Part shown: in pieces, positions 5,727-47,604 of the stretch | How positions within the stretch are numbered: the first letter of the stretch is position 1 | How the letters are laid out: each line of letters opens with the position of its first letter | NCBI GenBank assembly: GCA_942159475.1 | Contig: OW804097.1 | Span: 6,167,685-6,231,684, forward strand | Source: Sthenelais limicola | Lineage: Eukaryota > Annelida > Polychaeta > Phyllodocida > Sigalionidae | Length of the DNA stretch: 64,000 nucleotides | Direction: 5' to 3' | Translations under genes and position numbers: made by a program | Notes under the pieces: model-generated | What the model was told of the DNA's origin: nothing | Databases searched by the model: none | Seen by the model: only the letters and a program-made list of their open reading frames with translations

Positions 5727-5759
5727 CTGTAAATAAAAAATAAATAAATACCTTATAAA

Positions 5760-7655: not shown

Positions 7656-7856
7656 TGGAACTTTCTACTTTTGCACATTTGTTCAGTTGTGGTAGCGCAG
7701 TTGGTGAACCAAGTCATTTTCCAATGATAACACCAACAGAAAGACAACAATGGTCAGTATTATTTGTATTGATTTTATTGATGTCTTATTAATTTACATC
7801 ATTTACTACAAAATGGCATAGTAATATGATAAAAGATTACATTTACTGATTGACAG

Positions 7857-16683: not shown

Positions 16684-17975
16684 GATCTTCTTTTATATTT
16701 GTTGAAGTGCCACTGTCAGTTCAGATTCCCAAATTTAACCACAGAACAGCAAGACTATGTTAACTGTTCTACACAAGTTAGTAGAAGTGATGCAAACTGG
16801 GGTATATATTAGGTGCACAAGCAAAGGTTCACTAAACTATTTGAGCTTGGTCATGAAGATATGTACCATGGGGCATATTGAACAATCTATTTTTTTGTTT
16901 TGCACAATTGCACAAATAAACCCAAGATATGGTCTGACATTGGTATGACATGAGAACAATTTACCATTGTGATACAAACAAACCAATTAGCAATCCAAAT
17001 TTACTTTTATCCACAGAATCTTGTGGTTTTATTTGTTTGGTTGTAAACACCAGTGTTGCAAACATTGGTGACTAGACCCGTTTACAGAAGAATGAATTAT
17101 GAAAAGTATTCATGCATTGTGAGCTCGGCCACCCAGTACCAAACGGAGCATGGCTATGTACTGATTAATATTGTTCTCTCATACAGAGTGTACACATTAT
17201 TAGAGTATTAGTTTCAAACAGCTTGTCCATCTGGTCAGATACTGTTTTAGTTTGGTTTTTGGCTACTGACAATACAGTGGTACACTACCCACACAGAGGT
17301 AAGAATAATATAAGGCACACAGGGTTTTACAATGATACAGGTAAAACAGATAATCTTAGGTTAATCATACATCATGGAAGGTATTCATGCATTGTGAGCA
17401 TGGAAGCCCAATACCAAACAGAGCATGATTATGAGCTGATTTATATTGTTCTCTCATACAGAGTGTAGACATTATTAACATACTAGCTAGACTATATCTA
17501 AGCAGTATCAACTGGTATGATAGTACTCTCGTTTGGTTATTTGTTGCATACAAAATAGAAGCTGTACAGCGGTAGTACCTAAACTATTTGTCTTCATCAC
17601 AAACTTGTTAAATCTTCATCAGGTGTATCCCAAATATAGTAATATGTAATATGTAGTTCAACTACTTCCAACTACAACTATATTACAACTACTTCTAAGC
17701 TGGTCTTGGTATTAATATCAATACCAATAAATAATCATAAATAACTAGAAATGATACAGAATAAATGTACAAATTAATGTCAAACTATTCACCAAAATCA
17801 GGGACCCACAAACCATGCACAAATCGAAATATTCAGTAAAAATGACTCTAATTATACATAAATCGATAGAAATGTACAAATATACTCTAGACTATTCACA
17901 TATGTCAACCGAATGTATCCAAGGTTGTAACAACCCTCGGTATGGCCATAAATACATGTTAGAAAAAAATTAAAA
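16684..17975. other. upstream region of the second copy plus a second motif block
   Basis: The segment to about 17240 is homologous to 12534-13080. A second run of the motif follows at 17370-17480 (CATTGTGAGCATGGAAGCCC…TCTCTCATACAGAGTGTAGA), so the upstream block is itself duplicated in tandem. No coding region is seen. Confidence 0.5.
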
Positions 17976-17977
17976 TT

Positions 17978-18165
17978 GGTAGGTGACCGACAATCGGTCA
18001 CCCTCCTGACAATAAATTTACATTATTGTCGGGAGGGGGTCACGACAAGGCACCGACGAAATGCACAGGTTGACCGATTGTCCATCACCCTGTGACTGAT
18101 TGTCCGTCGCCCGGTATCCACTTGACCGATTGTCAGTCCCCCCTAGTGACTGACAATCAGTCACC
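17978..18165. repeat. cluster of short palindromes built on GACCGATTGTC
   Basis: GTGACCGACAATCGGTCAC is an almost perfect palindrome (about 17986-18001). It is followed by a hairpin with arms CCTGACAATAA and TTATTGTCGGG, and then three more forms of TGACCGATTGTC or TGACTGATTGTC in both orientations. The density is far above background. It may be a protein-binding cluster or the debris of a foldback element. Confidence 0.6.
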
Positions 18166-18419
18166 GTTTGTTGTGCAAGTGGATAACGGGCTTTATTCTC
18201 ATCTTCGTCTACCTTATAGATTCTATGTGTGTGTAATACTACAGAAGCTCTCATTTTCAGTTCACACATTAAAAATAGCATAGAAAGAGACCCTCCTTCG
18301 GAAATATTTTGCCTGTGTATAAACGCCTTGTGTATACACAGCCAATTTATTATTTATGTATTAAAGTTGACTTGTTCTAAGCCAAACATAATTTAAGGTT
18401 TATTGATAAAACTACCTTT

Positions 18420-18870
18420 CCTCTCACCGTGTGTTTTATATTTGATGATAACTTTTTCACATGTAACCACAGAACTACCAAGTTATACTAACTTTTATTC
18501 TCCACAACTAAGTTAAAGAGCTGCAAATTTACACATATATAAACTTAAATTATGGTATAAGACAGAGAACAAATTTAACATAGTATTCCTAACAAACCAG
18601 TTAGTAATCCAAATATACTTTTATCTATAGGTTTTTGTAATTATTGGGTGGTTGTATAGATTGATAACTTGGCCCATTTACAGTTGAACTCTCGGGGGAA
18701 AAGCCTTCAATGATCAGTAGGCCTACCAAACGGAGCATGGCTATGTGCTATTTTGTTCTCTCAAACAGATTGTACACATTCTAAGCGTATAACCTACGCA
18801 ATATCTAAGCGTGTAAGGCTGGTATGATACTAGTTTTCTTTGATTTTTGGTTGCTTACATTTACCTCAAC
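18420..18870. other. orphan upstream block of a lost secreted-gene copy
   Basis: It matches the region upstream of exon 1 in the other copies (TTTTATATTTGATGATAAC, then AACCACAGAAC, then TATTCTCCACAA, then ACTTTTATC, then AACGGAGCATGGCTATGTGC), but no exon 1 lies beside it at 18300-18420. It marks a fourth unit whose coding part was lost. Confidence 0.5.
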
Positions 18871-26454: not shown

Positions 26455-26741
26455 TTGGCGACGAGGATTGCCTTCACATTTGGAGGAGGAGAACCTTACA
26501 ACCTAAGGAAACTGGACAAAGCAGATCAGACTTGTGACAGTGAGTGAAATGTACTTAATGGTGTGGTGAAAGTGAGTGAATTCAGTCACCAGTGTTTGTC
26601 ACTGTCTACACAAGGCCTAGTGTGACACAAGGACTGTGGCAAGTGTTAAAACTAAAAAGATTGAGTGCAGTGACAGTTCTGATTGTGTTTTGGTCCATAT
26701 TCCTGTTAGTTACCGAACTATTGTGTCTCCTATATGTCACC

Positions 26742-27578
26742 ATGGCAGCTGCTAAAGGCCCAAAACTCAAAATTCAACCCTTTGATGTCACAGGGGATAG
26801 ACTCTCTCTAGGACAGGCATGGTCAAGGTGGATTGAGAGATTTGAGAGGGACCTACTCTACAATGGTGTGGAAGCAAGTGATGCAGCAAACAGTGCTGTT
26901 TGTCAGATGGCACTTCTGATTTATGCTGGGACGGCAGTTGAGGACATACATGACACCCTGGCTGATGTGGAAAAACCAGCAGGGGTAACAAATGCTAACT
27001 GGACTGCTTATGCCAAATCTAAAGCTAAACTAAATGCACGATTCTTGCCAAAGAAATCAAACGATTTTGCGTTATGTGAGTTAGTGACCCAGAAGCCACA
27101 AAAAGATGAGAGCATGGTAGATTTCGCAGCCAGACTACGGAGATCAGCGGTAAAATGTGACTTCAATAACTGGTCAGCAGACAAAATGATAAAGTGTCTC
27201 ATCATCGGTCACATGAAAGATGAGGAACTGCGCCTAAGCCTGCTTCAAGAAGAGTTGGAACTAGACCGAGTGCTGGACAAAATCAAACTGAAGGAGGATA
27301 CGACTGCCATGAGCAAGCGGATGGGAGCATCTGAAGGTTTTGCCAGCGGAGAGAGTGTGCAACATGTACAAGGGAAGAAGAAACGATTCATAGGCACGTC
27401 GGCCCAACACCGCGTCGGCCCAAGCCCCGTCGGCCCACCTGTGTGCCCCGTCGGCCCACCTCCAAAACCGCTTCGGCCCACCCCCAAGGCCGGCTCGGCC
27501 CACCCCCAAGATACTGATGCTAACTATAACCCTAAACCTAACCTTAAATGTGTGGTCCTAGGTCAGTATAGGCAGTAG
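26742..27578 (+). CDS. gypsy gag, capsid part, disrupted
   Basis: The likely start is the ATG at 26742 (context CACCATGG), not the upstream in-frame ATG. About 210 residues form a Ty3/gypsy-type capsid (WSRWIERFERDLLY; AKLNARFLPKK; FAARLRRSAVKCDF). From residue about 219 the frame enters the GTCGGCCCA array of an inserted element and ends at 27578. The original protein would have run on into the zinc-knuckle region that resumes after 27755. It assembles virus-like particles in the cytoplasm in intact relatives. Confidence 0.7.
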   Translation: MAAAKGPKLKIQPFDVTGDRLSLGQAWSRWIERFERDLLYNGVEASDAANSAVCQMALLIYAGTAVEDIHDTLADVEKPAGVTNANWTAYAKSKAKLNARFLPKKSNDFALCELVTQKPQKDESMVDFAARLRRSAVKCDFNNWSADKMIKCLIIGHMKDEELRLSLLQEELELDRVLDKIKLKEDTTAMSKRMGASEGFASGESVQHVQGKKKRFIGTSAQHRVGPSPVGPPVCPVGPPPKPLRPTPKAGSAHPQDTDANYNPKPNLKCVVLGQYRQ

Positions 27579-27760
27579 CCTAGGTCAGTATAGGCAGTAG
27601 TTATATCCCACTAGCATCCTGACGCCTAGTTTTTAGTTGATACCTTTATATTTACCTAGTGGGCCGACGCGGTCTACCCCTTGGGCCGACGCGGCCTAAG
27701 CCTTGGGCCGACGAGGCCCAAGTGCCTGGGCTGACGCGGTTTTGGACCGAAGCGTCTGGG
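27397..27760. mobile_element. foldback-like insertion with arrayed GTCGGCCCA termini
   Basis: The left 110 bases hold six iterations of CGTCGGCCCA with spacers of 5-13 bases. The right 95 bases hold four iterations of the reverse complement, TGGGCCGACG. The AT-rich centre has a 23-bp direct duplication (CCTAGGTCAGTATAGGCAGT plus AG) and a short CCCTAAACCTAACCTTA stretch. Inverted ends made of tandem units define foldback-type elements. It interrupts gag between the capsid and the zinc knuckles. Exact ends and target duplication are not clear. Confidence 0.65.
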
Positions 27761-29410
27761 TACCGAAGAAACAGCAGTGGTCCAAAACAAAGAAAGATGA
27801 CTCTAAAGACAGAAAAAGCATGTGTTTTACTTGTGGGGGTAAACAGCATGGGAGTGATGAAGAGTGCCCTGCCAAGAAAAGGAGGTGCAATAAATGTTCA
27901 AAAATAGGTCATTATGGGAGAGTATGCAAAAGCAAACTTAGAAGTGTACAATACCTTGATGAAGGTAATGGTGAGTCAGAAACTGACCAAGGTCAAACCA
28001 GTGATGATGAAAGTGTTTTTGTCTTATATGATTCTATCAATGCCATAAATGAGCCCAAAGGTAAATTATATGTCAAAATGGCAAATGTAAAGGTCGAAAC
28101 AATTATTGACACAGGGTCAAGTGTTAATGTTATTGACAGGGCAACATATGAGAAACTGGGAAAACCCAAGTTATCAAGACATCAAAGTAAACTGTATCCG
28201 TTTGGCACTAACGATAAGATCAAGGTTGAAGGGGTTTTTACAACTGATGTTGAAACTAAAGACAAGGTGGTGCTTGCAGAAATTCTGGTTGTAAAAGGTC
28301 TGCGAGTTTGCAATATTTTGTCTGAAGATTTATCCCTGAAATTAGGTGTTGTGAAGTATGTCAGATCAATTCGTGATGTTGTAGAAAGTAAGTACCCTGA
28401 GGTGTTTAAAGGGTTTGGTAAGCTAACCAGTTTTAAAGCAAAGGTGCATATCGACAATAGTGTCAAACCAGTTGTTCAGAAGTCCCGTAAAATACCATTT
28501 GCATTAAGAGATAAAGTAGAGAAGAAACTGCAAGAGCTAGAAATGCTAGATATAATCGAGCCTGTTCAAGAAACACCAACCGAGTGGGTATCACCAATGG
28601 TTATTGTCCCAAAACCAAATGGAGATGTAAGAATATGTGTTGACATGAGGAGGGCCAATGAAGCAGTTGTAAGAGTAAGGTATCCAATACCTACTATAGA
28701 TGAGATAATGGTTGATCTAAATCAGAGTGCTGTATTTTCCAAGATAGATCTGAGAATGGGGTATCACCAGATTGAACTCGATGAACAGTCAAAGGGTATC
28801 ACTACGTTCAACACACACAAAGGGTTGTTCAGGTACAAAAGGTTAATGTTTGGTATATCAGCTGCTCCTGAAATCTATCAGAATGCAATAAGCCAGGTAC
28901 TTAGTGGTTGTGACGGTGCTGTAAACATATCAGATGATATTCTAGTATATGGTTGCACCACAGGGGAGCATGATGCAAGGCTAGAGAAAGTACTCCAGGT
29001 CCTCTCTGAAAGGAAGCTAACGGTAAATAAGGAAAAATGCCAGTTCCGAATGAATAAGCTCACATTCATGGGTCATGTGCTTAGTGGTCACGGCATTGAG
29101 GCAGAACAAGCAAAAGTGGAAGCTATCAATGAAGCAAAAACTCCAAAAGATGCATCAGAAATCAGGAGTTTCCTGGGACTAGCAACATACTGCTCAAGGT
29201 ACATCCCAGATTTCGAAACAACTGCAGAGCCACTGCGACGCCTTACAAGGAAAAACACACCTTTCACATGGACTGATGAGCAGGAAAAAGCATTCACGAA
29301 ACTCAAGAGCTGTTTGAGCTCATCAACTGTGCTGGCCTACTTCAACAAAGAGGCACATACACAGGTCATTGCAGATGCTTCACCGGTAGGATTAGGTGCA
29401 GTGTATATAG
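27750..29410 (+). CDS. gypsy zinc knuckles, protease and reverse transcriptase, 3' truncated
   Basis: After the insertion the frame opens with two zinc knuckles (CFTCGGKQHG…C and CNKCSKIGHYGRVC). An aspartic protease follows with IIDTGSSVNVID. The reverse transcriptase has MVIVPKPNGDVRICVDMRRA, then FSKIDLRMGYHQIEL, and an active-site box ISDDILVYG where most gypsy elements have Y(V/L)DDI; the two aspartates remain. The connection domain and the RNase H start (DASPVGLGAV) follow. The annotated open frame runs on to 29472 in LINE sequence. Loss of RNase H and integrase makes it non-autonomous. Confidence 0.8.
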
Positions 29411-29631
29411 AGTTGGCTTTTGGAGGTATCGGACGTGTGTGTGGGAGCTCCGCCGAGACTGCTCTAACTTGATCATATATTGGACTAAAATCATTATTTT
29501 TTCATCTGATAGTTTCCTATCAGAGTGAGCTGGAATGACAGAGCTGAGTGAGTGTATTTTTGTGAACATTTGATCTATATTTGACTGTTTTTTGGAGGAA
29601 CATTTACTAAATTCCCTATATATCGTTCAAT

Positions 29632-31737
29632 ATGGAAGGCGATGCGCCAGTGTTTTTGACGCCAAACCAAGCAGCCACAGCTTTCAACCGACCGCTAATC
29701 CCTTTGTTGGACAACAATGAAAATGCTCTCCCAACTGTTGAACCTCTGTCTGATTTCGATCTGGTTTCAATTGCTGAATATGCGATCGATGTAGGGGATG
29801 AAAGTATTGATTCACTTAAAAAGTCACTAAATTTTGCCCACAAGAACTATGAAACAATAGTAAGCAAGATTGACGAACTTGTACTCAGCGAAAATAGTAT
29901 AAAGAAAGAAGTACTCGAATTAAGATCTAAAGTGCATGATTTGAACGAAGTGAAAGAAAATCAGCACGAGAAAATCCTCTCTTTGGAGACAGATTTACGC
30001 AGATCAAACCTACTAATCAGTGGAGTGCCCTACAACAAAAAGGAAGATACATACAAAGTAGCCCTTCAAGTATTAAATGAGATCTGCCCCACGATTAAGG
30101 AAAAAGATATACACCATGCCAGGAGACTGTGGAAAAAACAACTGGGTTCTCGTCAAATCTTGATTAAATTAAAGAACGAGCCCATGCGAAACTATATCTA
30201 TGACAGACGATCAAGTCTGAAGGATAGTCACGATTTCCCCAGAGTATACATCAATCCTGACTTGCCGGATGAGATACAAGAAAGAAAATCAAAACTAAGG
30301 ATGGTCAAATATCATGCTGAAAAAAAAGGAGGGAAAACGGTTGGGAAAATCGTAAGGGACAAGCTGCAGATAGACAATATCTGGTACAAGCACGACCAAC
30401 TCGAATTGCTAGATGATGGATATAGGCTGAGTGACGCTAAAACCAAGAGAACAGATGCCAGTATTTTTTTCCAATCGCAATATTCTCCCTTAAGTAATTT
30501 CTTCCCATCCCCCATCAAAGTCGATGAGCTTACGTTTAATTGTGCAGAACAAGCGTACCATTACGCCAGGGCAAACCTCCTAGGCAAAAGAGAAGAAGCT
30601 ACGAGGATATTCCTCGAGAAAGATCCAAGAAAAATAAAAAGAATTGCCCAAGAAGTAGAATCCACCGAAAAATGGGAAAAGCTCAAAATCCGTGTCATGC
30701 GAGCAGTTGCAGAAGAAAAGTTTTTGCAAAATGAAGATTTAGCTGACTACTTGATAAATACAGGAACCAGATCCCTATACGAAGCAACTAGTGATCGCTT
30801 CTGGGCGATAGGTTACCATTTACATGCTGATCAAATTGGTGGGGATAAATACATAGGCGAAAACCTCATGGGACAAATCCTAGAAGATATCCGTGCTGCA
30901 ATGAAAAATGAGATAACAGCAGAAGACAGGATAAAACGCAAATTCAAGGGACTAAACGGAGAAAAACCCAAACCATCAAATAGTAGTTCTCCCAAACCTA
31001 GAAGGAAGAAATATGAAACAAGAGATGAAAATCAGAAATCTGACATGGCCACAGGTGGGGGAAATGAGCATGCAACTTGGTTAACCCAGTACCAGGAAGA
31101 CATGTTTAATGATGCACACGAACAACGACCCAAACATAGAAAGAAGAAATATGTAACAAGGGATGAAAATCAGAAATCTGATATGGCCATAGGTGGAGGA
31201 AATGAGCACGCAAATTGGTTAACACATTACCAAGAAGATGTCTTTAATGATGTACACGAACAACGACCCATGTCATCAAGCCAGCCTATGCCCCATAGAG
31301 AAAAGTACATCCAACCTAGTGAACAAGTTCTAGGCCCTTTAGGCCAGGTACGTCCCAATATGCCTCCACCTTCGTCCCCCACTGAGGAATCCATTAGTAC
31401 AACCCAGGTGAGGACAACCACTGGATCAGTACGAATGCAGTCGCAATCCCCAACGTATGCTGAAAAATTGACTCCGCCATACCTAAGATCTGGATCTAAC
31501 TCTAAAACAAGCAAGAAGCCAACACCTGGAGAAAAGGAGGTAATTTCAAATCCTGAAAAATCTAAGAACAAATCTCAGAATTCTTCTAGGAATCGATCAG
31601 CTAAAAAACCCCAGGTAATCGAGCAGAATTGTAATGAAAATAACCTATCCGTCTCTGATAATGAAATTGAAATTGATGGAGAACTATCTCTAAGCAAAAT
31701 GTGTAAAATTGACGCAGAAGGGCACTGTAAAGCGTGA
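29632..31737 (+). CDS. LINE ORF1: coiled coil, RNA-binding-like core, NADAR domain
   Basis: 701 residues. Residues about 60-120 form a coiled coil (heptad-rich, ending EKILSLETDLRRSNLLISGV). Residues 120-250 match the L1/CR1-type ORF1 RRM and C-terminal pattern (RRSNLLISGVP; RQILIKLKNEPMR; YINPDLPDEI). Residues about 275-425 are a NADAR/YbiA-like domain: FFQSQYSPLSNFFPSP, the conserved NCAEQAYHYA (E306), WEKLKIRVM, KFLQNEDLADYL, and SDRFWAIGY (387-395). A 42-residue direct repeat follows (RDENQKSDMA…GGGNEHA, twice), then a Ser/Pro-rich tail. NADAR enzymes cleave ADP-ribose linkages, including guanine ADP-ribosylation. A role protecting the element's nucleic acid is inference. Confidence 0.85.
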   Translation: MEGDAPVFLTPNQAATAFNRPLIPLLDNNENALPTVEPLSDFDLVSIAEYAIDVGDESIDSLKKSLNFAHKNYETIVSKIDELVLSENSIKKEVLELRSKVHDLNEVKENQHEKILSLETDLRRSNLLISGVPYNKKEDTYKVALQVLNEICPTIKEKDIHHARRLWKKQLGSRQILIKLKNEPMRNYIYDRRSSLKDSHDFPRVYINPDLPDEIQERKSKLRMVKYHAEKKGGKTVGKIVRDKLQIDNIWYKHDQLELLDDGYRLSDAKTKRTDASIFFQSQYSPLSNFFPSPIKVDELTFNCAEQAYHYARANLLGKREEATRIFLEKDPRKIKRIAQEVESTEKWEKLKIRVMRAVAEEKFLQNEDLADYLINTGTRSLYEATSDRFWAIGYHLHADQIGGDKYIGENLMGQILEDIRAAMKNEITAEDRIKRKFKGLNGEKPKPSNSSSPKPRRKKYETRDENQKSDMATGGGNEHATWLTQYQEDMFNDAHEQRPKHRKKKYVTRDENQKSDMAIGGGNEHANWLTHYQEDVFNDVHEQRPMSSSQPMPHREKYIQPSEQVLGPLGQVRPNMPPPSSPTEESISTTQVRTTTGSVRMQSQSPTYAEKLTPPYLRSGSNSKTSKKPTPGEKEVISNPEKSKNKSQNSSRNRSAKKPQVIEQNCNENNLSVSDNEIEIDGELSLSKMCKIDAEGHCKA

Positions 31738-31779
31738 TAACCCCAGTAGCTTATATACTCTATTTAAATTGCAGAAAAA

Positions 31780-32394
31780 ATGAATCCCTCAACGATAGTG
31801 GTAACAGATTCTAGAGGAAAACATCTCCAACCATATATAAATTCAAGTGATATTATAATATATCCCTACAGTGGTGCCGGTCTGAAACGCCTATCAGTTG
31901 AATTGAAAAGGAAAATAAATCTCCATCATCCAACAAATGCTATCCTCATTGGAGGCATTTGCGATTTTTGCTTGAAAAATCGAGAAACACAGGAGATAAC
32001 GCTAGCTTCTTATCACGAGGGCCAGCTGGTACGACATATGATATCCCTATATGAAGATTCTCTCAATTACCTTCAATACGAGCAGACCATATGTAACATA
32101 TCGTTAGGAGGTCTAATAGGAGTTCAGTTGAATAAAGCGAATAACCTGGAGGGTTTCTCTGAGCACCAAAACATGATTTCTAATGCCATAGTAACCATCA
32201 ACCAAGACCTGCGAATGATGAATTTCAATAGAAGCCTAAATCATCCTCACCTAATAACGAAAGTGCACAAGTATGAAAAACATCGCCCGAGACACACCTA
32301 TACAAGGCTGCCCGACGGAATCCACCTGGATGAGATAGTCTTAAAAAACTGGGCCAAACAGATCAAGTTATTCCATGAAACCCCACGCATATAG
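31780..32394 (+). CDS. LINE ORF2: SGNH-hydrolase-like protein
   Basis: 204 residues, starting 42 bases after ORF1. It begins with a beta strand and nucleophile block (TIVVTDSRGKHL, Ser11), followed by GAGLKRL, a block-III-like LIGGICDF, and ends with LPDGIHLDE, giving the Asp179/His182 pair expected in block V of SGNH/GDSL hydrolases. Esterase-like domains occur within ORF1 of some CR1-type LINEs; here it is a free-standing cistron. The substrate is unknown. The short gap suggests reinitiation or a downstream start on the same transcript. An alternative is a non-catalytic fold, since block II glycine and block III asparagine are weak. Confidence 0.7.
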   Translation: MNPSTIVVTDSRGKHLQPYINSSDIIIYPYSGAGLKRLSVELKRKINLHHPTNAILIGGICDFCLKNRETQEITLASYHEGQLVRHMISLYEDSLNYLQYEQTICNISLGGLIGVQLNKANNLEGFSEHQNMISNAIVTINQDLRMMNFNRSLNHPHLITKVHKYEKHRPRHTYTRLPDGIHLDEIVLKNWAKQIKLFHETPRI

Positions 32395-33727
32395 AATTTA
32401 AAATGACAATATAATTTTTTAAACTAATCGAACACGCAGGATGATGATAATCATTGTCTGTGATATAATTCAACAGCTAGTAATGACTGGACACGCTATC
32501 CTAATAACCATTTCTGAGTGAATAACCATTGTAACTTATATCTCACACTACTATTCATGCCTCGATACCCTATACCTAATTATACCATCAAATGCGCTAT
32601 ATTTAACAACAACTGTGAAATGATCACCCTGAAAGCCAGTACAGGCAACTAGAAGTAGATGGGCTCAAGTCTTATGAAATGTTGGAAATAATATTATAAA
32701 TTATAACAGTAAAATTATCCTCTAAATGCATGATAAATCGCTGGTTTTTGTATTAGAAACTTTCCCTACACAATGAATGATATGAATGTTGATAATCACA
32801 TGTTCTCTTATATTGATAGTAGACATTACAGTACATTTGTGAAGCTCAAGAAGGGGGCCGCCAGCAAGACCAGACGACGATATATCATCGCTAGTCGACC
32901 TCGCCACCCTCTCCCACGAGCAAATTCATTGCATTTCTTGGTACGAATACACAATGGACACTTGTATAAGAATATTCGGAAAATTGCCATCTTTTCTTCC
33001 TTGATATGCCGGTAAGTGACCTATCAAATACTACTCTGATAGCCTGGAACACTGTACTTATAAGAAACATGAAATACAGATTTGGCGACCATGTTTAGAT
33101 ACGTTAAAAATGCCTAATACAATGATATTTTATAACCTATGTTAAAACCCAATGGTACGGTGCAAACATGGTAAAGATAAATCGTTATGTTGAAATTATA
33201 TACCAGAACACAAATGGTACGGTCCAATCAGAAGGTGATTACAAATAAAGTTTATCTCTAACGTTAAAAACACCAATGGTACGGTGCAAACTAAAAAAGC
33301 AAACTCTGAAACAATTCGGATTGATATATGCTATGCCCCATTCACCAACGGTAGGTACAGGCAAGTCAATACAGATGGCGCCACTAAGGCAAAGTTTTTG
33401 GACCGCCCACCTGTTTCTGATATAAATAGAAAATCGAGACGTTGTACTTAGTTGATTTCATGACAGCAAGCTCGCCGCATCGCTGGGTAGTAAACCCCAT
33501 ATGTATTGTTGTATTGTTATACGCTCGAGGTTTGAATTGATTAACACTGTTGTACCTTCCTTGAGAAAATGCAAAACTCATATGACGATGATCGTTGCTG
33601 AGGGATGCAAATGATTTAATGTTATATATAACTGGTTTGTGTGTTTGATAAGATAGAAGACAAAGTTGTCATATGACGATAATCATTACTGCTAGTTCTT
33701 CTTATTACTGTCCTACGTAAATAACTA
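32395..33727. other. 1.3-kb spacer between LINE ORFs 2 and 3
   Basis: No convincing ORF. It contains a spaced triple repeat (33147-33292) and two copies of CATATGACGATAATCATTAC-type sequence at about 33580 and 33669. An 80-codon frame at 32773-33015 is unrecognised. Such a long spacer is unusual in a LINE and may hold an internal promoter or ribosome-entry structure (inference). Confidence 0.5.
33147..33292. repeat. three evenly spaced copies of AATGGTACGGTGCAAAC
   Basis: Copies begin at about 33151, 33213 and 33275, a 62-base spacing, each preceded by an A-rich stretch; the middle copy reads CGGTCCAATC. The intervening sequence is not repeated, so the motif itself seems constrained. Confidence 0.7.
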
Positions 33728-36592
33728 ATGGCAGTCCAGGTTGATGAAAAGCAACTTGAAAATTGGAATGATTTAACGAAAATGAATGGGTGTAAAGTAA
33801 TCCATCTTAATGTTCGCTCTTTAGTCCCGAAATTTGATCAGTTAAAGGAAGAAATATTTAATAAGCACATTGATATAATCTGTTTCACAGAAACTTGGAT
33901 AAAAAACGACTCCTGCCTAAATTCGATTGATCACCCGAATTATAATCTGATAAATCTTAATAGAGAAGGTAATAAGCACGGAGGCGGTGTATGCATATAT
34001 GTAAGAGATACTTATCAATTTAGTCTAAATGAACAGCTTTCTGTAAGTAATGAACATATTGAAATTCTGTGTCTCACAATTAGTAAAGAGTACATGAAAC
34101 CCATTCTATTGAGTGTGGTCTATAGACCTCCGCAAGCTAACATCAACGCAGGTTTCACCCATCTTAGAGATATATTGAAAGATTCTGAAAGTCAAAACCG
34201 CTTAGGTTCAATGATATTAGTCGGAGACTTTAACATTGATCTAAATGACAAGCAAAATCCCAAGTATAAAATTGTAAAGGACTTGCAGAAAGAATTTAGT
34301 TTAACTACAAACTCAAAATTTACAACACGCTTCGGCCTTAGGAAGGACAGTGTTTTGGATTATTTCATGTATAAATCAAATAAGTCATCTACTTCGGGAA
34401 CCATTAACTATAATATATCAGATCACCAAGTAATATACCTAGTCCTAAAACACAAACGAATCAAAAAAGATCCCTGTGTAAAACGTAGAATTAGATCAAT
34501 GAACAGAGTTAATAAGGAGAATATTGAAACTATTCTGGAAGGCATGTCCTGGGATGAATATTATAAAATTGAAAATACTGATGATGCATGGTTGTATTTG
34601 TATGATAGGATGCTGGAGATAGCTGACAAGCTTGCACCCTGGAAAACTATTCATATTAGACTAAATAGGCCAAAATGGTATACGCAAGATATCATAAATG
34701 CTTGCAAAGTCAGAGAAGAACTTTTCAGAAATGCAAATATCACCAAAGATCAGCACGACATCCGTGCAGCCAAAGTCCAGAGGAACCATGTCAATAGTAT
34801 GTTCAGACGAGCGAAATCCGAATATTATATTGGTCTATTGAATGATAACTCGCAGGATAGCAAAAAACTATGGCGGACCATTGATGAAATCACATCTAAC
34901 AAAACTAAAGAAATTACAAATATGTATACCCATGATAATATTAAATTGGACATACCCAATTCTGCCAATATGTTAAACGAACATTACTGTTCGATAGGAA
35001 GTAAAATACAGCAGAAACTTCCTCATATACCACTAACACTCAAAGATGAAATTATAAATGAAAATTGTACAAATTTTGAAACCATCTCGCTGGATACTCT
35101 AAGTAGACTAATTCATGACATGGATACCTCGAAATCGTCTGGCTGTAGGGCTATTAATGCTAAACTTTACAAGGAATTGTTTTTATGTTTGATCAACCAA
35201 TTGAAGTATTTAATGAATCTATCGATCAACAGTGGTGTTTTTCCCACCGCTTGGAAAATGGCTATTGTTAAGCCTATTCCTAAGAAAAGTAATGTAAAAT
35301 TACCAGGGGACACTAGACCCATAGCACTTACTCATGTGGGAGGCAAATTATTGGAGAAATATATAGCTGAACAAATTTGGAATCACCTGAATATTAACGA
35401 CATCCTAACCCCAAATCAATATGGCTTTAGGAAAAACAGAAGTACACATGAAGCCTTATACGAATTAATTAACCATATCAACATTAATAATAATAATAAT
35501 ATGCTCACTGCTGCAGTCTTTATAGACTTCAGCAAAGCTTTTGATAGTGTAAATCATAAAATTATTACAGAAAAACTAAAAAAGATCGGCTTCAATAATC
35601 TCGCCTTAAAATGGCTAGAATCATACTTGACAAAACGATCACAACTTGTGCGAATATCAGATTACCACTCTGAGCCTTCCCCTATTGAGTGTGGAGTCCC
35701 TCAGGGATCAATATTGGGCCCGATTATTTATCTTATTTTCTCCAATGATATTAATAAATTGAATTTAGCCTCCCACTACATCCTCTACGCGGATGACACT
35801 GTCTTATTTACATCCGGCAAAGACATTGACGAGTTAACAAAGAAAATGAACGAAGACCTTAGCATATTCTATAATTGGTCTATCCAAAACAAAATCCTGG
35901 TGAATACTGGTAAAACTAAATCAATGTTGTTTGGAGAGAGGAAGAAAAGTAATACTAATCTCCAGCTGAAAATTAATCAAAACGAGATTGGATGTGTTAA
36001 AGATTATACCTACTTAGGTATAAATATTGATAGCAAACTAAATTTTAATGAACAGAGTAAAATACTAATAAAGTCGCTTCATCATAGAATATATCAATTA
36101 TCTATAATCCGGAAAAATCTTAATAAAAGAAGTGCATTGCTGCTGGTCAAAGCGAATATCTTGTCTATAATTGACTACAGTATCGCATTAATCAGTAGAT
36201 GTAACCAGCAAACACTTAATAGTATCCAGCGTTTGCAAAACAAAGCACTGAAAATTGCTTTAGGATGCCCACCTCGGACATCAACAAATGAAATCCACCT
36301 GACAACAAAAACAATGAAAATCAAACACAGGATTGATTTTCTTCTCTCCAAACAAGCATTTACTGTAATAACAAAGCTTAAAGAGTCTGGTACCCTGCCT
36401 GTAAACCGAGCAACTCGTCAGTTTGATGCACCTATATTACCCATTTTTACCCCCAGAAAGAATTCAGATATCCAATCTCTCCATTATCAAACAGGATCCA
36501 TTTGGAACAAATTACCCATCAGACTTAGAAATATTGAAGATAATAAAATGTTCAAAATTCAAATCAAACGATTTTACTTAGATAAAGAATAG
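33728..36592 (+). CDS. LINE ORF3: apurinic-like endonuclease and reverse transcriptase
   Basis: 954 residues, open throughout. The N-terminal third is an exonuclease-endonuclease-phosphatase domain: HLNVRSL, CFTETWI, GGGVCIYVRD, VVYRPP, VGDFNIDL and SDHQVIY. The reverse transcriptase follows with FIDFSKAFDSVNH, GVPQGSILGP and YADD (687-690). The tail has LQNKALKIALG and WNKLPIRLR. There is no RNase H, consistent with the CR1/L2/Jockey group. It nicks target DNA and primes cDNA synthesis from the LINE RNA. All catalytic boxes are present, so it may be active. The start is the first ATG in frame; a downstream start is possible. Confidence 0.9.
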   Translation: MAVQVDEKQLENWNDLTKMNGCKVIHLNVRSLVPKFDQLKEEIFNKHIDIICFTETWIKNDSCLNSIDHPNYNLINLNREGNKHGGGVCIYVRDTYQFSLNEQLSVSNEHIEILCLTISKEYMKPILLSVVYRPPQANINAGFTHLRDILKDSESQNRLGSMILVGDFNIDLNDKQNPKYKIVKDLQKEFSLTTNSKFTTRFGLRKDSVLDYFMYKSNKSSTSGTINYNISDHQVIYLVLKHKRIKKDPCVKRRIRSMNRVNKENIETILEGMSWDEYYKIENTDDAWLYLYDRMLEIADKLAPWKTIHIRLNRPKWYTQDIINACKVREELFRNANITKDQHDIRAAKVQRNHVNSMFRRAKSEYYIGLLNDNSQDSKKLWRTIDEITSNKTKEITNMYTHDNIKLDIPNSANMLNEHYCSIGSKIQQKLPHIPLTLKDEIINENCTNFETISLDTLSRLIHDMDTSKSSGCRAINAKLYKELFLCLINQLKYLMNLSINSGVFPTAWKMAIVKPIPKKSNVKLPGDTRPIALTHVGGKLLEKYIAEQIWNHLNINDILTPNQYGFRKNRSTHEALYELINHININNNNNMLTAAVFIDFSKAFDSVNHKIITEKLKKIGFNNLALKWLESYLTKRSQLVRISDYHSEPSPIECGVPQGSILGPIIYLIFSNDINKLNLASHYILYADDTVLFTSGKDIDELTKKMNEDLSIFYNWSIQNKILVNTGKTKSMLFGERKKSNTNLQLKINQNEIGCVKDYTYLGINIDSKLNFNEQSKILIKSLHHRIYQLSIIRKNLNKRSALLLVKANILSIIDYSIALISRCNQQTLNSIQRLQNKALKIALGCPPRTSTNEIHLTTKTMKIKHRIDFLLSKQAFTVITKLKESGTLPVNRATRQFDAPILPIFTPRKNSDIQSLHYQTGSIWNKLPIRLRNIEDNKMFKIQIKRFYLDKE

Positions 36593-36912
36593 ACTCACCA
36601 CTTGCTCGGCTCTTTCTTTCCACACTCACTCCCACCTCGATGAAACATTTTTTTTCTATAGATATGTTTTCTCATCTACCATCATTTCTCAAATCATCTG
36701 TCCATATTAATTTAAATTGAACCTCTTAAGTATAATGTAATCTGTTTCAGTTTGTTAATATCATCATCATTTTTTATAAAATTATACAGCATTGTCCATA
36801 GAATGAAATGCAGACAACCTATAAAATCGCAAATTGTATGCGGCGGTTAGCTCTGCAAAAATTTTCATGTTATTTCGTACGAAAATAAAAATGATTAAAA
36901 AAAAAAAAAAAA
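36593..36912 (+). other. LINE 3' region and poly(A) tail
   Basis: A 300-base untranslated segment ends in AATAAAAATGATT and a run of 16 A at 36897-36912. The tail ends 76 bases before the SAP-gene start codon. Confidence 0.7.
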
Positions 36913-36988
36913 TATAGGTAAAGTACTGAGGACGCTTAGCTTGAGCTTGACGAACCATATCAACTTCCAACCAACCTATACCACCACC

Positions 36989-37125
36989 ATGCCCAAGGTG
37001 AAGAATAAATCCGCCAACGTCCCCAAGGACCATCCATATGGGGGGATGACAAAGAAACAACTCAAGGAACAACTCAAGAGGAGAGGATCTGCAGTTTCAG
37101 GTCCTAAGGTTGAACTCATGGCGAG
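36989..37125 (+). CDS. SAP-CARD host gene, exon 1 (SAP domain)
   Basis: The start codon at 36989 has context CACCACCATGC. 45 codons plus two bases encode a basic leader (MPKVKNKSANVPKDHPYGG) and a SAP motif, MTKKQLKEQLKRRGSAVSG then PKVELMA, which binds AT-rich or scaffold DNA in other proteins. The exon end is best placed at 37125 using a GC-AG intron (GCGAG|GCAAGT, the consensus GC donor). This leaves phase 2, and joining to exon 2 at 50973 completes ARLES, the expected end of a SAP helix. The alternative donor, CAA|GTATAA, gives a stop in exon 2. The 13.8-kb intron is full of repeats. Confidence 0.7.
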
Positions 37126-37469
37126 GCAAGTATAAATATGATAATAATTATGTAGCAGTTGTCATATAGTTTACCACTATTCCTCTTTCATTTAAACCTG
37201 ATTGCTTCATCTGGGCATATAGTTATAATTGGGAGTTTCTGTTTACGATGCTGTTGCTGCGACGTGCTACCACAAAGTGAGTCAAATGCTCTTCCGACAT
37301 GACATCATGTTATATGTAACGTAACAAACACCCCAGATTAAGGATTTTCATTGGATTATCCTAGTCTGGTTGTTAGCTCCAGTCCTTTTGCATAGTAACC
37401 CATTATTTGTCAACAGATCACTCGGTATGATGACCAAAAAACAAAAAAAATAATTGGGAGTTTCTTTCT

Positions 37470-37632
37470 GGATATTCATGAAGTGCCTTTCTGTCTCTTT
37501 TTCTCTGTCTCTCTCTCCCTTCTTCTCTATCTCTATTTCCTGCGTAAGACCATAAAGTGCCTTTCTGTCTCTTTTCTCTGTCTCTCTCTCCCTTCTTCTC
37601 TATCTCTATTTCCTGGGTATGATCATAAACTG
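37470..37632. repeat. ~80-bp pyrimidine-rich duplication
   Basis: Two units of GTGCCTTTCTGTCTCTTTT…CTATTTCCTG(C/G)GTA lie side by side in intron 1, just before the 76-bp satellite. Confidence 0.8.
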
Positions 37633-38018
37633 CCTCCCTCTCAGCTCTCCCGCCCTTGATATAACCTTTATATGTGTTGATAAGGGTGTAAAGCAACCAA
37701 TCTCACTCACTCACTCTCAGCTCTCCCGCCCTTGATATAACCTTTCAATGTGTTGATAAGGGCGTAAAGCAGCCAATCTCACTCACTCCCTCTCAGCTCT
37801 CCCGCCCTTGATATAACCTTTCAATGTGTTGATAAGGGCGTAAAGCAGCCAATCTCACTCACTCCCTCTCAGCTCTCCCGCCCTTGATATAACCTTTCAA
37901 TGTGTTGATAAGGACGTAAAGCAGCCAATCTCACTCACTCCCTCTCAGCTCTCCCGCCCTTGATATAACCTTTCAATGTGTTGATAAGGACGTAAAGCAG
38001 CCAATCTCACTCACTCCC
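37633..38018. repeat. 76-bp minisatellite, five units
   Basis: CTCTCAGCTCTCCCGCCCTT begins at 37638, 37714, 37790, 37866 and 37942, an exact 76-bp period. Units 2-5 differ at only a few positions; unit 1 is more diverged. It lies in intron 1 of the SAP gene. Confidence 0.95.
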
Positions 38019-38511
38019 TCCTGTGTTACCATCGAGTGAATCAAAATGCTCTAGTATGTGACGTCACACGGTAACTGAACACCTGTTACAGGTGGGTTAT
38101 GTTACTAGGGATATATTGATTAGTTTTAAATTTTAAATGAGTTTATATCGGTTGCCCTGTTATTCTTTCTCTTGCCTTGAGTTTGATGTGACAAGAGAAA
38201 GTTTATTGGGTAAGTTTATTGCGTAAATCTTTCTTCAGTGTTTTATTTATGTTTCTAGCAAATATAATACTTATTATCATTATGAGAGAAAAAACTAGAA
38301 TTGTGAATACACAAATATGAAGTCAAAATTATGGTTTGTAACAAATCAGAAAAGCTGTTTTATTTGATAAAAAATTAGGCCGGGAATATTTTAGCTTCAA
38401 AGTAGTGCTGTGTATTTTATACCCTAATTACCCTAGGTCTCACACCTTAATTACCCACGCGAACATGTATATATGTACCTCTCACCCCCATGACACCTAA
38501 GTACACTTAAA

Positions 38512-38943
38512 ATGATCATATTACCAAATATCGACTATGGGGATGTCTTCTATGATAGCTCAAACAAAAGCCTAATAAAAAGGCTGCAGTCACTGTTAAA
38601 CACTGCCATAAGAGCTACTCTAGACCTCAGCAAAAGAACAAATGTTGATGAAGAAATGAAAATATTAAATATACACTCAAATGCACTAAGAAGAAAAATA
38701 CATGAATGTGTCTACTATCTAGCCAGAAATAACACAAATATAGACGAGAGAAAACTCCCAACTAGAAATCATGCAAAAAATCGAAAAATCCTGAAAATGG
38801 AACATCCAAATTCTTCTTTATTCAGAAATAGTTTCCTTTATAAATCAAAATGTATCTGGAATGCTCTCCCAACTAAAATGCAAAATATAGAGACCCAACG
38901 AGAATTTAGGCAGAAATTAGAACTTTTCTACTTAGAACAATAA
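38512..38943 (+). pseudogene. LINE 3' fragment, C-terminal tail of reverse transcriptase ORF
   Basis: 143 open codons match the region after the reverse-transcriptase domain in CR1/Jockey LINEs: ILPNIDYGDVFYD, LQSLLNTAIRATLDL, then CIWNALPTKMQNI and a final FYLEQ. The sequence differs clearly from the LINE at 33728-36592 and belongs to another family. Everything upstream of about 38500 is missing, a typical 5' truncation. The 3' part runs to about 39235 or beyond. Confidence 0.7.
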
Positions 38944-43856: not shown

Positions 43857-44906
43857 TTATTTGAATCCCAATCTGTCAGGCTGTCTTACATTTCTCTGAG
43901 GACGTTTTAGTAAATACTCAGATTTAACCAATTTGTCCAGAGCCTTAGGTAATACCTTATCAACATCAGAAACCAGATTTCCTTCCTCTACATCACTTTC
44001 TGAGCTCGACTCACCCGAAGACAGCGCAGCGGGTAGAGGCGGTTTATCCCCCACTGCCACAGCCTTAGCTTTGGGTGGCCGGCCACGCCTCTTCACATGA
44101 TGGACAATTCGGTTGCCCGGAGTAACCTCAGGAGCTTCAGTACCCGGCATTACCTTCCCGTCTGGGGCAACTCGGATAATATCTCTCCCGGCAACCAGTT
44201 GTTTCTGATACTCCGGAGCCCGGTGCAAGTTGGTTACTTGGACCGGTTTACCATCTGAATTGAAAGCTTTCTTCAATAAATTACCATTCCATCGAAGAAG
44301 ACCATCTGTTGTTCTTAATTCATAAGTACACCCTTGAACTCTCCTTACCACCTCAAACGGGCCATCCCATTTGGGTCCATATTTCTTTTGCGCTAATGGT
44401 GTTGCATAGCGCCATACCATATCACCAGCCTGAAACACCCGGGGTCTAGCCCGTCTATCAAAATATCTTTTCTGATAAACTGCAGCATGACCCAACCGTT
44501 CCCTTACGAATTTATGCCCCTTCCTCAACAGTTGTCTTATCTCCTCCACAAATGCAGTGTGGCAGGGAAAGTCAACATCTCCAGTTAATGTGCCATATAT
44601 GATATCAGCCGGAGTAACCAGCTCAGTACCAAACACAACACTATTCGGCGTGCAATATGTGCTTTTATGTACCGCACCCCTGTACGCGTGGGCAATACAG
44701 GGCACCAGCAGATCCCAGTTTACATCATCGTACTCTGTTAAGCAAGAGAGCTGCTCTACCAAGACTCTATTAAATCTCTCTACCTGCCCATTCGCCATTG
44801 GTCTGTAGGGAAGAGTCATCAGCTTCTCAATATCCAACATTTCCAACAATTCCTTTAACAGAGCTGACCGGAGCTCCATCTGTCTGCAGGGACACAGGCG
44901 GTCCAT
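43857..44906 (-). CDS. gypsy integrase, C-terminal part, out of frame with pol
   Basis: It contains the end of the integrase core with the catalytic Glu (RPMANGQVERFNR) and a C-terminal GPF module (KYGPKWDGPFEVVRRV, LRTTDGLLRWNGN), then a basic and acidic tail. The first 10 or so residues of the open frame are shadow sequence. The true continuation comes from the upstream pol frame, which is broken at about 44865-44880 by a small deletion between short direct repeats next to the second catalytic Asp. Integration function is therefore lost in this copy. Confidence 0.85.
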   Translation of the reverse strand: MDRLCPCRQMELRSALLKELLEMLDIEKLMTLPYRPMANGQVERFNRVLVEQLSCLTEYDDVNWDLLVPCIAHAYRGAVHKSTYCTPNSVVFGTELVTPADIIYGTLTGDVDFPCHTAFVEEIRQLLRKGHKFVRERLGHAAVYQKRYFDRRARPRVFQAGDMVWRYATPLAQKKYGPKWDGPFEVVRRVQGCTYELRTTDGLLRWNGNLLKKAFNSDGKPVQVTNLHRAPEYQKQLVAGRDIIRVAPDGKVMPGTEAPEVTPGNRIVHHVKRRGRPPKAKAVAVGDKPPLPAALSSGESSSESDVEEGNLVSDVDKVLPKALDKLVKSEYLLKRPQRNVRQPDRLGFK

Positions 44907-47604
44907 ACCTCAATATCCACTCAGTGAACAACGCCATAGCACAAGTTGCCGCAGTATGATCCGGCAAGGGATATGCCTCAGCCCATTTTGAGAAGTAGTC
45001 GGTTACCACCATTACACAGACATTACCTCTCGGAGTCTTTTTAAATGGACCAATTATATCCAAAGCGACCCGGCTCCAACGCACTCCATGTAATTCCTTT
45101 CTCAGTGGAGTAATGCCTTTACCACCCCTGCTTTTGCAAGAAGCGCAAGCTTCACAGCCTCTTACCCAGTCAGCTATATCCAAGTTCATCCGGGGCCAGA
45201 TAAATTTCTTTAACGCCGCCTGGTATGTCTTGAATTCACCAAAGTGGACTGAGAGCTTGTTCCCGTGCAAAGTCTGAAACAACTCCTTCCTCAAGCAGAA
45301 TGGAACAGCCGCTCTTGTATACACCACACCATTGTCGCTTTCCCATTTCACACACAATAAACCGTCTACCAACTCCATTTTAGGCAGCAGCTTAGCATAG
45401 AAGCAATATTCGTCATCCTCAGCCAATAGGTCCTTTTTCTCCGGGCAAGGGGCATTGCTTTCCAGCAAGGCTGCTATCCTCTTCAATATCTCATCCTCAG
45501 CTTGTGCCTGTCTTAACCGATCACCAGCCAATTGCGCAAATATCTCATACTCCATTGTCATCACAGCAATAACCGCATCATGCTCACCGCAGTCAGGGCA
45601 ATCTTCTCGCGGGCATTTCCGGACAGGTAATCTCGATAATGCATCAGCATTCGAATGATTTTTCCCAGCCCGATGAGAAATCTGCTTAGCTGAAATACCA
45701 TAGTGTTGAAGGGTAGTTAACCACCGAGCCAACATACCAGATGGGTCCTTAAAGGTCATCAACCATCGTAACGAGGCATGATCCGTTCTAAGAACGAAGT
45801 CTTCCCTCCCTATGATGTAGTGTTGGAATTTGCCCAAATACGTTAGCACAGCCAACAACTCCCTTTTTGTAGCGCAATAATTCCGCTGAGCTCGGCTCAG
45901 ACTATTACTTGCATAGCTGAGTACAACCTCTTTACCCTCCTGAATCTGAGACAAAACTCCGGCCATACCAAATCCACTGGCATCTGTATCCAGGATTATA
46001 GTACCAGCCGGCTGCGGGTATCCCAGGACAGGAGCTTTAGTCAACAATTCTTTTAAACGACCAAATGCCTCCAAACATTTTTCATCAAAAACCACCCCTT
46101 TTGTCTTTGAATTAGCTCCTATCACCAGAGCTTGAATAGGTTCAGCAATCTCAGAGAACTTAGGCATAAATTCCCTATAGTAAGACGCGAACCCTAGAAA
46201 CTGACGTACCTCTCGTACAGTAGAGGGCACTGGCCACTCCCGAACCCGGTCTAACTTAGAGGGGTCTGGCCGGATCCCCCCTTCAGACACTATCCGGCCC
46301 AGGTATTGCACTTCCAGTTTAAAGAATTCGCACTTCTTGGGTTTCAATTTTAGCCCATAAGACCTAAGTCTCTGCAAGACTAATTCAGTATTCTGCAAAG
46401 TTTCATCCAGGGTCCTACCAAATATAATTATATCATCCAAATACACCAAGCAAACCTTCCAGCGCAGACCCGACAGCATTTGTTCCATCATGCGCTCAAA
46501 GGTAGCCGGGGCATTACATAAGCCAAAGCTCATGACCTTAAATTGATACAAGCCCATAGAGGAGACAAAAGCGGTCTTCTCCCGGCTAGCTGGATCCATG
46601 GCAATTTGCCAATACCCACTTTCCAGATCCAGTGTGACAAACCATTTATTGCCTCCCAATGCATCGATACATTCATCAATTCTGGGAAGAGGGAATGAGT
46701 CCTTCTTTGTGACGGCATTTAATGGCCTATAGTCTACACAAAACCTGTCAGTACCATCTTTCTTCTTTACAATCACAATACCAGCCCCCCAAGGACTATT
46801 ACTCTCTTCAATTACGCCTTTATCAAGCATATCCTGTATTTGTTTCTCCGCCGCCTCCCGCTTAGCCGGCGGTAACCTTCTGCAACCGGACTTAATTGGA
46901 GCTGCATCTCCAGTATCAACCCGGTGCGTTACTACATTAGTATGACCCAATATTTCACCCGGTAACTGAAAACAATCCTTATAGGACAGCAATAATTTCA
47001 ACAGTCTTCCTCGATCAACCGCCCTGACCAAATCTGACCCTATCACCAACTTCTCCAGGGGACAACTATCACCAAGAGGCATTGGGACCTCTGGTTCCAG
47101 TAATTCCACATCCACGATAGGTGAATACTTATCATTAGCCAACTCTCCCTCTATAGCCGTATGCAGTTCAACCAGTATTGGTTCTCCCGTCGGGTTAGTT
47201 CCCAATAACGTATTTCCGATTTGCGTTTCCGTAACCGGATCATTATATTCCAGGAAACTTCCCAATTCAGAGCCGTTTGGGGCAAAGATCTGGCCTCCAC
47301 CGGGGGACCCAAGAACTCCACCTGAGCAAACAGACGAGAAAGCGTCCACGAAAACACTCTCAGTCTTATTCACTACCAGAGATCCACTTTGCAATGGTCT
47401 GCACGCTACAGTGTGTTCACCATCTTCCAAGGTGAATTTGCCCGACCAGTCTGAATTACACTGGTGTAAAAATATAAAATCTATACCCAGTATTCCGGCC
47501 TCTACACCGACTAAACCACTCACAACCAGACAGTTGAGAGCAAACCATTGATCACCTACTCCTAATGCAACCATGTGTAACCAGGTTATGTCCGGTGCCA
47601 GCAT
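44827..47604 (-). CDS. gypsy pol: protease end, reverse transcriptase, RNase H, integrase start
   Basis: The frame enters in the protease C-terminal half (AGILGIDFIF). The reverse transcriptase shows GIVIVKKKDGTDRFCVDYRP, then VTLDLESGYWQIAM, then LVYLDDIIIFG. RNase H has TDASGFGMAGVLSQ and CATKRELLAVL. The integrase zinc motif is HGNKLSVHFGEF…CEACASCK. The core begins with DIIGPF and reaches LQTDG (first and second Asp), after which the frame is lost. The last 15 residues of the open frame are out-of-frame noise. Length and order fit the Ty3/gypsy norm. Confidence 0.9.
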   Translation of the reverse strand: MLAPDITWLHMVALGVGDQWFALNCLVVSGLVGVEAGILGIDFIFLHQCNSDWSGKFTLEDGEHTVACRPLQSGSLVVNKTESVFVDAFSSVCSGGVLGSPGGGQIFAPNGSELGSFLEYNDPVTETQIGNTLLGTNPTGEPILVELHTAIEGELANDKYSPIVDVELLEPEVPMPLGDSCPLEKLVIGSDLVRAVDRGRLLKLLLSYKDCFQLPGEILGHTNVVTHRVDTGDAAPIKSGCRRLPPAKREAAEKQIQDMLDKGVIEESNSPWGAGIVIVKKKDGTDRFCVDYRPLNAVTKKDSFPLPRIDECIDALGGNKWFVTLDLESGYWQIAMDPASREKTAFVSSMGLYQFKVMSFGLCNAPATFERMMEQMLSGLRWKVCLVYLDDIIIFGRTLDETLQNTELVLQRLRSYGLKLKPKKCEFFKLEVQYLGRIVSEGGIRPDPSKLDRVREWPVPSTVREVRQFLGFASYYREFMPKFSEIAEPIQALVIGANSKTKGVVFDEKCLEAFGRLKELLTKAPVLGYPQPAGTIILDTDASGFGMAGVLSQIQEGKEVVLSYASNSLSRAQRNYCATKRELLAVLTYLGKFQHYIIGREDFVLRTDHASLRWLMTFKDPSGMLARWLTTLQHYGISAKQISHRAGKNHSNADALSRLPVRKCPREDCPDCGEHDAVIAVMTMEYEIFAQLAGDRLRQAQAEDEILKRIAALLESNAPCPEKKDLLAEDDEYCFYAKLLPKMELVDGLLCVKWESDNGVVYTRAAVPFCLRKELFQTLHGNKLSVHFGEFKTYQAALKKFIWPRMNLDIADWVRGCEACASCKSRGGKGITPLRKELHGVRWSRVALDIIGPFKKTPRGNVCVMVVTDYFSKWAEAYPLPDHTAATCAMALFTEWILRYGPPVSLQTDGAPVSSVKGIVGNVGY

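Follow-up and report, generated by a model that had tools for sequence, protein, structure and literature searches.

A LINE of the annelid Sthenelais limicola with a NADAR domain in its L1-type ORF1 and an SGNH-like companion ORF

We analysed a 64,000-nucleotide stretch of the Sthenelais limicola genome (assembly GCA_942159475.1, contig OW804097.1, positions 6,167,685 to 6,231,684 of the forward strand; hereafter the window) and found on its + strand a long interspersed nuclear element (LINE) whose first open reading frame (ORF1) joins an L1-type architecture to a NADAR domain. The element begins near 29415 and ends with the poly(A) at 36897-36912, and its three ORFs are open: ORF1, a small SGNH-like ORF and an ORF for endonuclease and reverse transcriptase (EN-RT). 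NADAR-bearing copies are numerous in the genome and the active site is conserved among the intact ones. From the sequence, we consider the chances about even that the NADAR of the ORF1 protein (ORF1p) is an active hydrolase of YbiA type working in cis, which would clean ADP-ribosylated guanine or nearby material. The features, in window positions, are as follows.

29415..29631, + strand: 5′ untranslated region (UTR); 5′ end approximate; recurs in the closest genomic copies
29632..31737, + strand: ORF1, 701 amino acids (aa), with coiled coil, RNA recognition motif (RRM), C-terminal domain (CTD), NADAR and low-complexity tail
29800..30006, + strand: ORF1p coiled coil, residues 57-125; a single long helix in the AlphaFold2 model, with a profile match to L1 ORF1p
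30007..30411, + strand: RRM and CTD of L1 type, residues 126-260
30460..30912, + strand: NADAR domain, residues 277-427
30991..31266, + strand: tail segment of ORF1, 138 nt (46 aa), duplicated in tandem and in frame
31780..32394, + strand: small ORF, 204 aa, SGNH-like by motif
32395..33727, + strand: non-coding spacer of 1,333 nt, with a 24-nt motif present three times at 62 nt spacing
33728..36592, + strand: EN-RT ORF, 954 aa, with RVT_1 and Exo_endo_phos matches
36593..36912, + strand: 3′ UTR and poly(A) (16 A, 36897-36912)

An earlier sequence-only reading had proposed a NADAR domain in ORF1 and suggested a profile search as a check. This was borne out: Pfam NADAR (PF08719) matched residues 280-424 with an E value of 3e-31 and 109.3 bits against a cut-off of 35.1, and NCBIfam TIGR02464 matched ORF1 with an E value of 4.9e-31 (108.1 against a cut-off of 73.7). 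Both profile and fold relate ORF1 to NADAR structures (8bau, 2b3w) and to human L1 ORF1p, and the region combines a family-profile match above the curated cut-off with the NADAR fold of the NADAR/YbiA superfamily. The profile of the ORF1 alignment (A3) matched human L1 ORF1p (2ykp/2yko) with an E value of 3e-11, and the protein has the coiled coil, single RRM and CTD of Type II (L1-type) ORF1s. The duplicates in the tail are 88% identical, with 7.5 synonymous and 8.5 nonsynonymous differences.

The same reading had described the LINE as intact, and the ORF1, small-ORF and EN-RT frames are indeed all open. Its interval, 29632..32394, corresponds to ORF1 plus the small ORF; EN-RT lies outside, beyond the spacer. 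This downstream ORF combines an APE-type endonuclease with a reverse transcriptase (Pfam Exo_endo_phos, E 1.8e-10; RVT_1, E 1.5e-38), and the eight endonuclease and reverse transcriptase motifs sought, including TETW, GDFNID, SDHQ and YADD, are all intact. With its 954 aa and a WNxLP C-terminus it presumably resembles the Jockey/CR1/L2 group and not Tx1. The borders recur elsewhere in the genome. The 5′ UTR (window 29411-29631) was found again at 99.5, 93, 77 and 95% identity in loci L020, L021, L022 and L023, with matches beginning at query bases 1, 6, 12 and 5 respectively, and the 3′ UTR at 99, 95, 79 and 97% in the same loci and partially in more diverged copies. A search of 29000-37200 against Rfam gave a single chance-level match (E 0.88), under the gathering score.

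We then examined the distribution of the element in the assembly (1.13 Gb, 161 contigs). Counts rest on the best-scoring among loose candidates, and totals are thus lower bounds. For ORF1, the best 64 of 6,240 candidates were scored (123 match rows), at 54-100% identity over the matched stretch. The NADAR region was covered in all 64; copies of the LINE without the domain, the outcome that the sequence-only reading had set against itself, were not seen among them. The NADAR-family search gave 5,561 candidates, the best 150 of which were scored: all were above the Pfam cut-off and 148 had no inner stop. For the small ORF, the best 150 of 2,649 candidates all matched at 61-100% identity. We fetched 20 ORF1 places, hand-picked for identity spread and hence all with ORF1 by choice. 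The small ORF was found in 19 of them (not L039) and EN-RT in 19 (not L021); in the 18 loci with both, the order was ORF1, small ORF, a spacer of about 0.7-2.3 kb and EN-RT, several ORFs being broken or partial. The window's own spacer was retrieved at 98% identity in L020, 86% in L021 and 87% in L023 and in patches in L022, whereas the remaining 16 fetched loci gave no match to it. In L039 (G000:C6:27132650-27142550), a 150-aa frame was observed between ORF1 and EN-RT.

These copies bear on two readings that would dissolve the element. ORF1 and the SGNH-like ORF could form one element and EN-RT an adjacent one, a one-ORF LINE starting in the 1.3-kb spacer. The long non-coding spacer with its short repeats speaks for this, as does the codon usage of the small ORF, which is unlike that of ORF1 (r 0.38) or EN-RT (r 0.28). 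The lack of a target-site duplication does so too: within 28000-34000, the sequence following the poly(A) has no exact 9-12-nt match apart from a single 9-mer that belongs to the element itself. However, the order is the same in 18 of the 20 fetched copies, the spacer is almost unchanged in L020, and ORF1 and EN-RT are mutually closest in codon usage among ten other window ORFs (r 0.74). Despite the missing target-site duplication, the co-linear copies and the spacer common to the closest ones thus show that ORF1, small ORF and EN-RT form one element; the co-linear copies refute the two-element reading, which we hold very improbable. A one-off capture or an assembly chimera, for which nothing spoke beyond the caution of the sequence-only reading, is scarcely credible: it is refuted by the NADAR region in all 64 scored genomic places (the best of 6,240 candidates) and by four proteins from other sequence sources (P0001-P0004), which show the same domain order as ORF1 at 26-29% identity.

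Comparison of copies by nonsynonymous (dN) and synonymous (dS) divergence, another check suggested at the outset, was consistent with purifying selection. Between the window and L022, whose ORF1s are 82% identical over the first 477 residues, the NADAR domain gave dN 0.066 and dS 1.33 (ratio 0.05), EN-RT dN 0.09 and dS 1.29, and the ORF1 tail dN 0.177 and dS 0.629. In this pair NADAR therefore evolves at about the pace of EN-RT and far slower than the tail. The RRM and the small ORF had dN of 0.088 and 0.046, with synonymous sites saturated in both. The window and L020 NADAR domains differ by 4 synonymous and 0 nonsynonymous changes. Thus NADAR is under purifying selection in the usable pairs. 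Rows dropped from these comparisons were L021, L032, L034, L035 and L039 for the small ORF, those of L032 and L035 being omitted despite long open frames there, and L021, L023, L032, L033, L035 and L038 for EN-RT.

For the active site we used as reference the ADP-ribose (ADPr) complex 8bau, the P. nicotianae NADAR (PMC11543638), whose chain numbering, judging from the residue letters, is that of the paper plus 2. The contacts E43, K75, W89, E125, D130 and W133 correspond to E306, K336, W348, E384, D388 and W391 of ORF1, and two further contacts are substituted, K50 by R313 and R93 by K352. Conservation was read from 18 rows of intact genomic ORF1s, the window's own and those of 17 of the 20 fetched loci, some of them near-copies of one another; the broken ORF1s of L021, L023 and L032 were dropped. 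E306, R313, W348, K352, E384, D388 and W391 are invariant in all 18 and K336 is kept in 17. The domain accordingly has the residues of the YbiA type, E384 (E125), E306 (E43) and a basic R313 (K50), the basic residue being Arg and not Lys. Common to all 18 rows, this arginine is thus characteristic of the whole set and not the defect of one copy. A permutation for conservation gave p 1e-4, a flattering value, given that 8 of the 11 ADPr-contacting positions were used and the unconserved 79, 84 and 86 omitted. In P0001-P0004, E43, K75, W89 and E125 are present throughout, and K50 is Lys in three and Arg in one. The conserved residues and the purifying selection support the enzymatic role that the sequence-only reading had proposed for the domain.

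How such an enzyme would serve the element can be outlined. ORF1p would package the element RNA through coiled coil, RRM and CTD, as in L1. The NADAR domain of the particle would strip ADPr from guanines in the element RNA or in the first cDNA strand, or from neighbouring ADP-ribosylated material, and this removal would leave reverse transcription and translation unblocked. The SGNH-like ORF would be retained alongside, perhaps as an esterase such as other LINE ORF1s are reported to contain. Because NADAR stands in cis with the putative RNA-packaging protein, its substrate is probably met at the particle and is probably ADP-ribosylated guanine in element RNA or cDNA. That the fusion and the active site are apparently preserved by selection suggests that the element gains from this chemistry. 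Several points weigh against an active hydrolase. The 8bau contacts R79 (= Q340), Y84 and D86 are lost, the last two having no match; among the proteins from other sources, P0004 is without the D130 residue and P0001 carries Phe for W133. The K-to-R mutant at the catalytic lysine lost cell rescue from DarT1 (PMC11543638), so that an invariant Arg here could point to an activity that is altered or reduced. TIGR02464 is named for a riboflavin-intermediate N-glycosidase, another NADAR activity. Moreover, most copy pairs are too diverged (saturated) for dN/dS: one NADAR pair fell in the usable dS range of the script, and the ratio of 0.05 rests on the window-L022 pair at dS 1.33.

Two other functions of the domain were weighed against hydrolysis at the particle. 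NADAR could be a reader: by binding ADPr or ADP-ribosylated sites it would anchor the LINE particle, at PARP-marked DNA damage for instance, with no need for hydrolysis. The loss of R79, Y84 and D86 and the change of K50 to Arg would agree with this, as would the restriction of human L1 by ZAP/PARP13, a PARP-family protein (PMC4441479). However, E384, at the position of the E125 carboxylate required for hydrolysis in a characterised NADAR, is invariant in 18 of 18 rows, and a K-to-R change still permits hydrolysis of guanine-ADPr in vitro (PMC11543638); we hold a pure reader to be unlikely. It also seems improbable to us that the substrates of NADAR are small molecules (riboflavin intermediates, RNA-repair by-products, free or cyclic ADPr), in which case the element would blunt a diffusible signal or clear metabolites instead of cleaning its own nucleic acid. 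The TIGR02464 match above cut-off points that way, and it has been posited that viral NADARs, phage ones foremost, may prefer soluble ADPr derivatives (PMC9503650). For eukaryotic RNA viruses, though, the same source favours macromolecules as NADAR targets, and covalent fusion to an RNA-binding particle protein at all 64 scored places better fits a local macromolecular substrate. Returning to the hydrolase acting on guanine, a wider version of it is an ADP-ribose arms race, in which host or invader modifies retroelement guanines, the LINE tethers an eraser, and the SGNH-like partner performs a second demodification or a membrane step. This would be a eukaryotic mobile-element parallel of phage NADARs set against DarT-like defences; we regard it, like the counter-defence suggested by the sequence-only reading, as a tentative idea, rather doubtful as it stands.

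The companion ORF had been called an SGNH-hydrolase-like protein by the sequence-only reading. The ORF and its motifs are present, TDSRG from residue 9, GGICD from 58 and DGIHL from 179, and all 16 aligned rows share S11, G32, C61, D179 and H182. Ser11, Gly32, Asp179 and His182 fall in the SGNH-like blocks DSRG, SGA and DGIH; by motif they provide the Ser of block I, the Gly of block II and the Asp and His of block V. Block III lacks its Asn, with Cys61 instead in 16/16 rows and in a distant relative (L041, 29% identity) that retains the other four residues. Of the three proteins it shows the highest conservation in copies more diverged than L022 (about 65-76% identity, against about 47-56% for ORF1 and about 52-68% for EN-RT pieces). 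The family assignment itself found no match: Pfam GDSL was not matched by the small ORF, its 12 aligned members (A5) or the L041 ORF, nor was any NCBIfam model supporting the SGNH family matched by the small ORF; a protein-database search gave 85 candidates, none at E 0.001; and alignments of 12 and 7 members matched no SGNH chain in the PDB. In hhalign comparison with four GDSL-type proteins, blocks I-III came in register with a probability of 1.2%, equalled by 1 of 40 column shuffles. A single-sequence fold (pLDDT 31) was not used, and a shuffle of the SGNH motif, whose pattern was composed after sight of the sequence, is not counted as evidence. On its motifs, the ORF is probably a diverged SGNH member, and we label it SGNH-like by motif. 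Elsewhere in the genome, L043, L044 and L045 carry short frames above the Pfam GDSL cut-off, with 212 aa (3 rows) and 248 aa (6 rows) as recurrent frame lengths.

Distant relatives vary this arrangement. In L041 (G000:C2:62613000-62617000), the ORF1 NADAR is 28% identical to that of the window and the end of ORF1 overlaps, in another frame, an SGNH-like ORF that keeps GGICD and DGLH. L040 (G000:C6:73356700-73360700) has a 22% identical NADAR-ORF1 and, about 600 nt downstream, an EN-RT frame (25%), with no small-ORF match at E 0.01. P0005 (615 aa) has weak N-terminal zinc-finger matches, CCHC-like knuckles by eye, and a NADAR just above cut-off with His at the catalytic Glu position. P0006 (516 aa, four member sequences) joins a GDSL lipase match (E 3e-6, below the Pfam cut-off) to a NADAR above cut-off, with a zinc-knuckle match at chance level only; hhalign of A5 against it gave no match. 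Under the arms-race idea, GDSL-like and NADAR parts in one chain would hint that the two activities work together. A stand-alone 162-aa NADAR frame (L042, G000:C1:94854900-94856100) may belong to a host gene or another element; the same frame length was seen at C1:89380390 and C1:66983187. Among viral contigs, ORF1 and EN-RT found no relatives, and query A4 hit a NADAR at 25% identity on two IMG/VR contigs, of which one entered the tree; a profile search of genome contigs with A4 matched none. In the NADAR tree (19 rows), 2 of 16 inner branches were starred and the window grouped with P0004 (91/86), a resolution too poor to count captures.

Other features lie around the LINE. Immediately upstream, a Gypsy-like gag/pol fragment (26592-29472) is cut in its RNase H region at the LINE 5′ end. 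By eye, it does not resume past the poly(A), so that the 5′ junction possibly reflects something other than straightforward insertion into a complete gypsy. Just downstream lie tandem arrays of 73- and 76-bp units (37477-38020) and a C-terminal piece of a second LINE reverse transcriptase (38506-38940), 25% identical to EN-RT. Further features are a gypsy-type pol frame with RVT_1, RNase H and integrase domains (44827-47610, - strand), a weak Baculo_F envelope match (53682-55733, + strand; E 0.0037, below cut-off), a weak GIY-YIG match just below cut-off (62693-63748, - strand) and a DUF3504 with a weak phage-integrase match (4294-5337, - strand). Within 1-18860 there are locally duplicated segments of about 68-97% identity, among them two related secreted-looking frames on the - strand (12000-12542, without Pfam match, and 16156-16692).

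NADARs are reported to clear ADPr from guanosine in RNA (PMC11833690) and guanine ADPr from single-stranded DNA (PMC11543638), and NADARs with the capacity to remove this guanine mark also occur in animals (PMC11125620, PMC11543638). Few writers of this mark are known in animals. CARP-1 of clams and the pierisins modify guanine N2, the erasure of these marks by NADARs being an assumption (PMC11543638), and a writer acting in animals is conceivable. That a many-copy LINE maintains a seemingly intact eraser within its packaging protein speaks for a contact between ADP-ribose chemistry and retrotransposition. With its host genome, at least 64 ORF1 and at least 150 NADAR scored places and a conserved active site, it offers a system for asking who writes the mark, and on what.

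The NADAR-ORF1 fusion itself is already known: a Repbase query found NADAR in ORF1 of several Tx1 LINE families of Crassostrea gigas (PMC12477816), the sole paper on NADAR in retrotransposons that our literature search found, in which a role in RNA processing is suggested for these domains. The two systems share a NADAR within an animal LINE ORF1; the description, in its available parts, makes no mention of an L1-type RRM/CTD fusion, an SGNH-like ORF, selection or active-site state. The Ectocarpus Gypsy of the same paper is likewise a retroelement with a YbiA-family NADAR, but it is a long terminal repeat element of a brown alga, with the domain at the Pol N-terminus. Type II ORF1s of the L1, CR1, L2 and R1 clades share coiled coil, RRM and CTD with the present ORF1; those listed in PMC4120745 are given without NADAR, whereas in the present protein the CTD is followed by NADAR and a tail. 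Besides Type II, that paper describes the esterase (Type IV) ORF1s and the reticulate evolution of ORF1. The Type IV SGNH esterase ORF1 of ZfL2-1 (PMC3905857) is also LINE-encoded, with Ser and Asp/His blocks, but in that type the esterase is an ORF1 domain in proteins reported to be free of RRMs, and according to the same source no esterase-containing ORF1p in Repbase carried an RRM in 2013. Here a separate ORF stands beside an RRM-bearing ORF1, with Cys for the block-III Asn and, unlike the ZfL2-1 type, no sequence-level match to a solved SGNH protein. The known modularity of LINE ORF1s is thus extended, an SGNH-like companion travelling with an RRM-type ORF1. Finally, the DarT1-NADAR, YbiA and P. 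nicotianae NADAR (PMC11543638) have the same fold and most of the ADPr-contacting residues in common with the present domain, which differs from them by the arginine fixed at the catalytic lysine position and by its fusion to a putative RNA-packaging protein.

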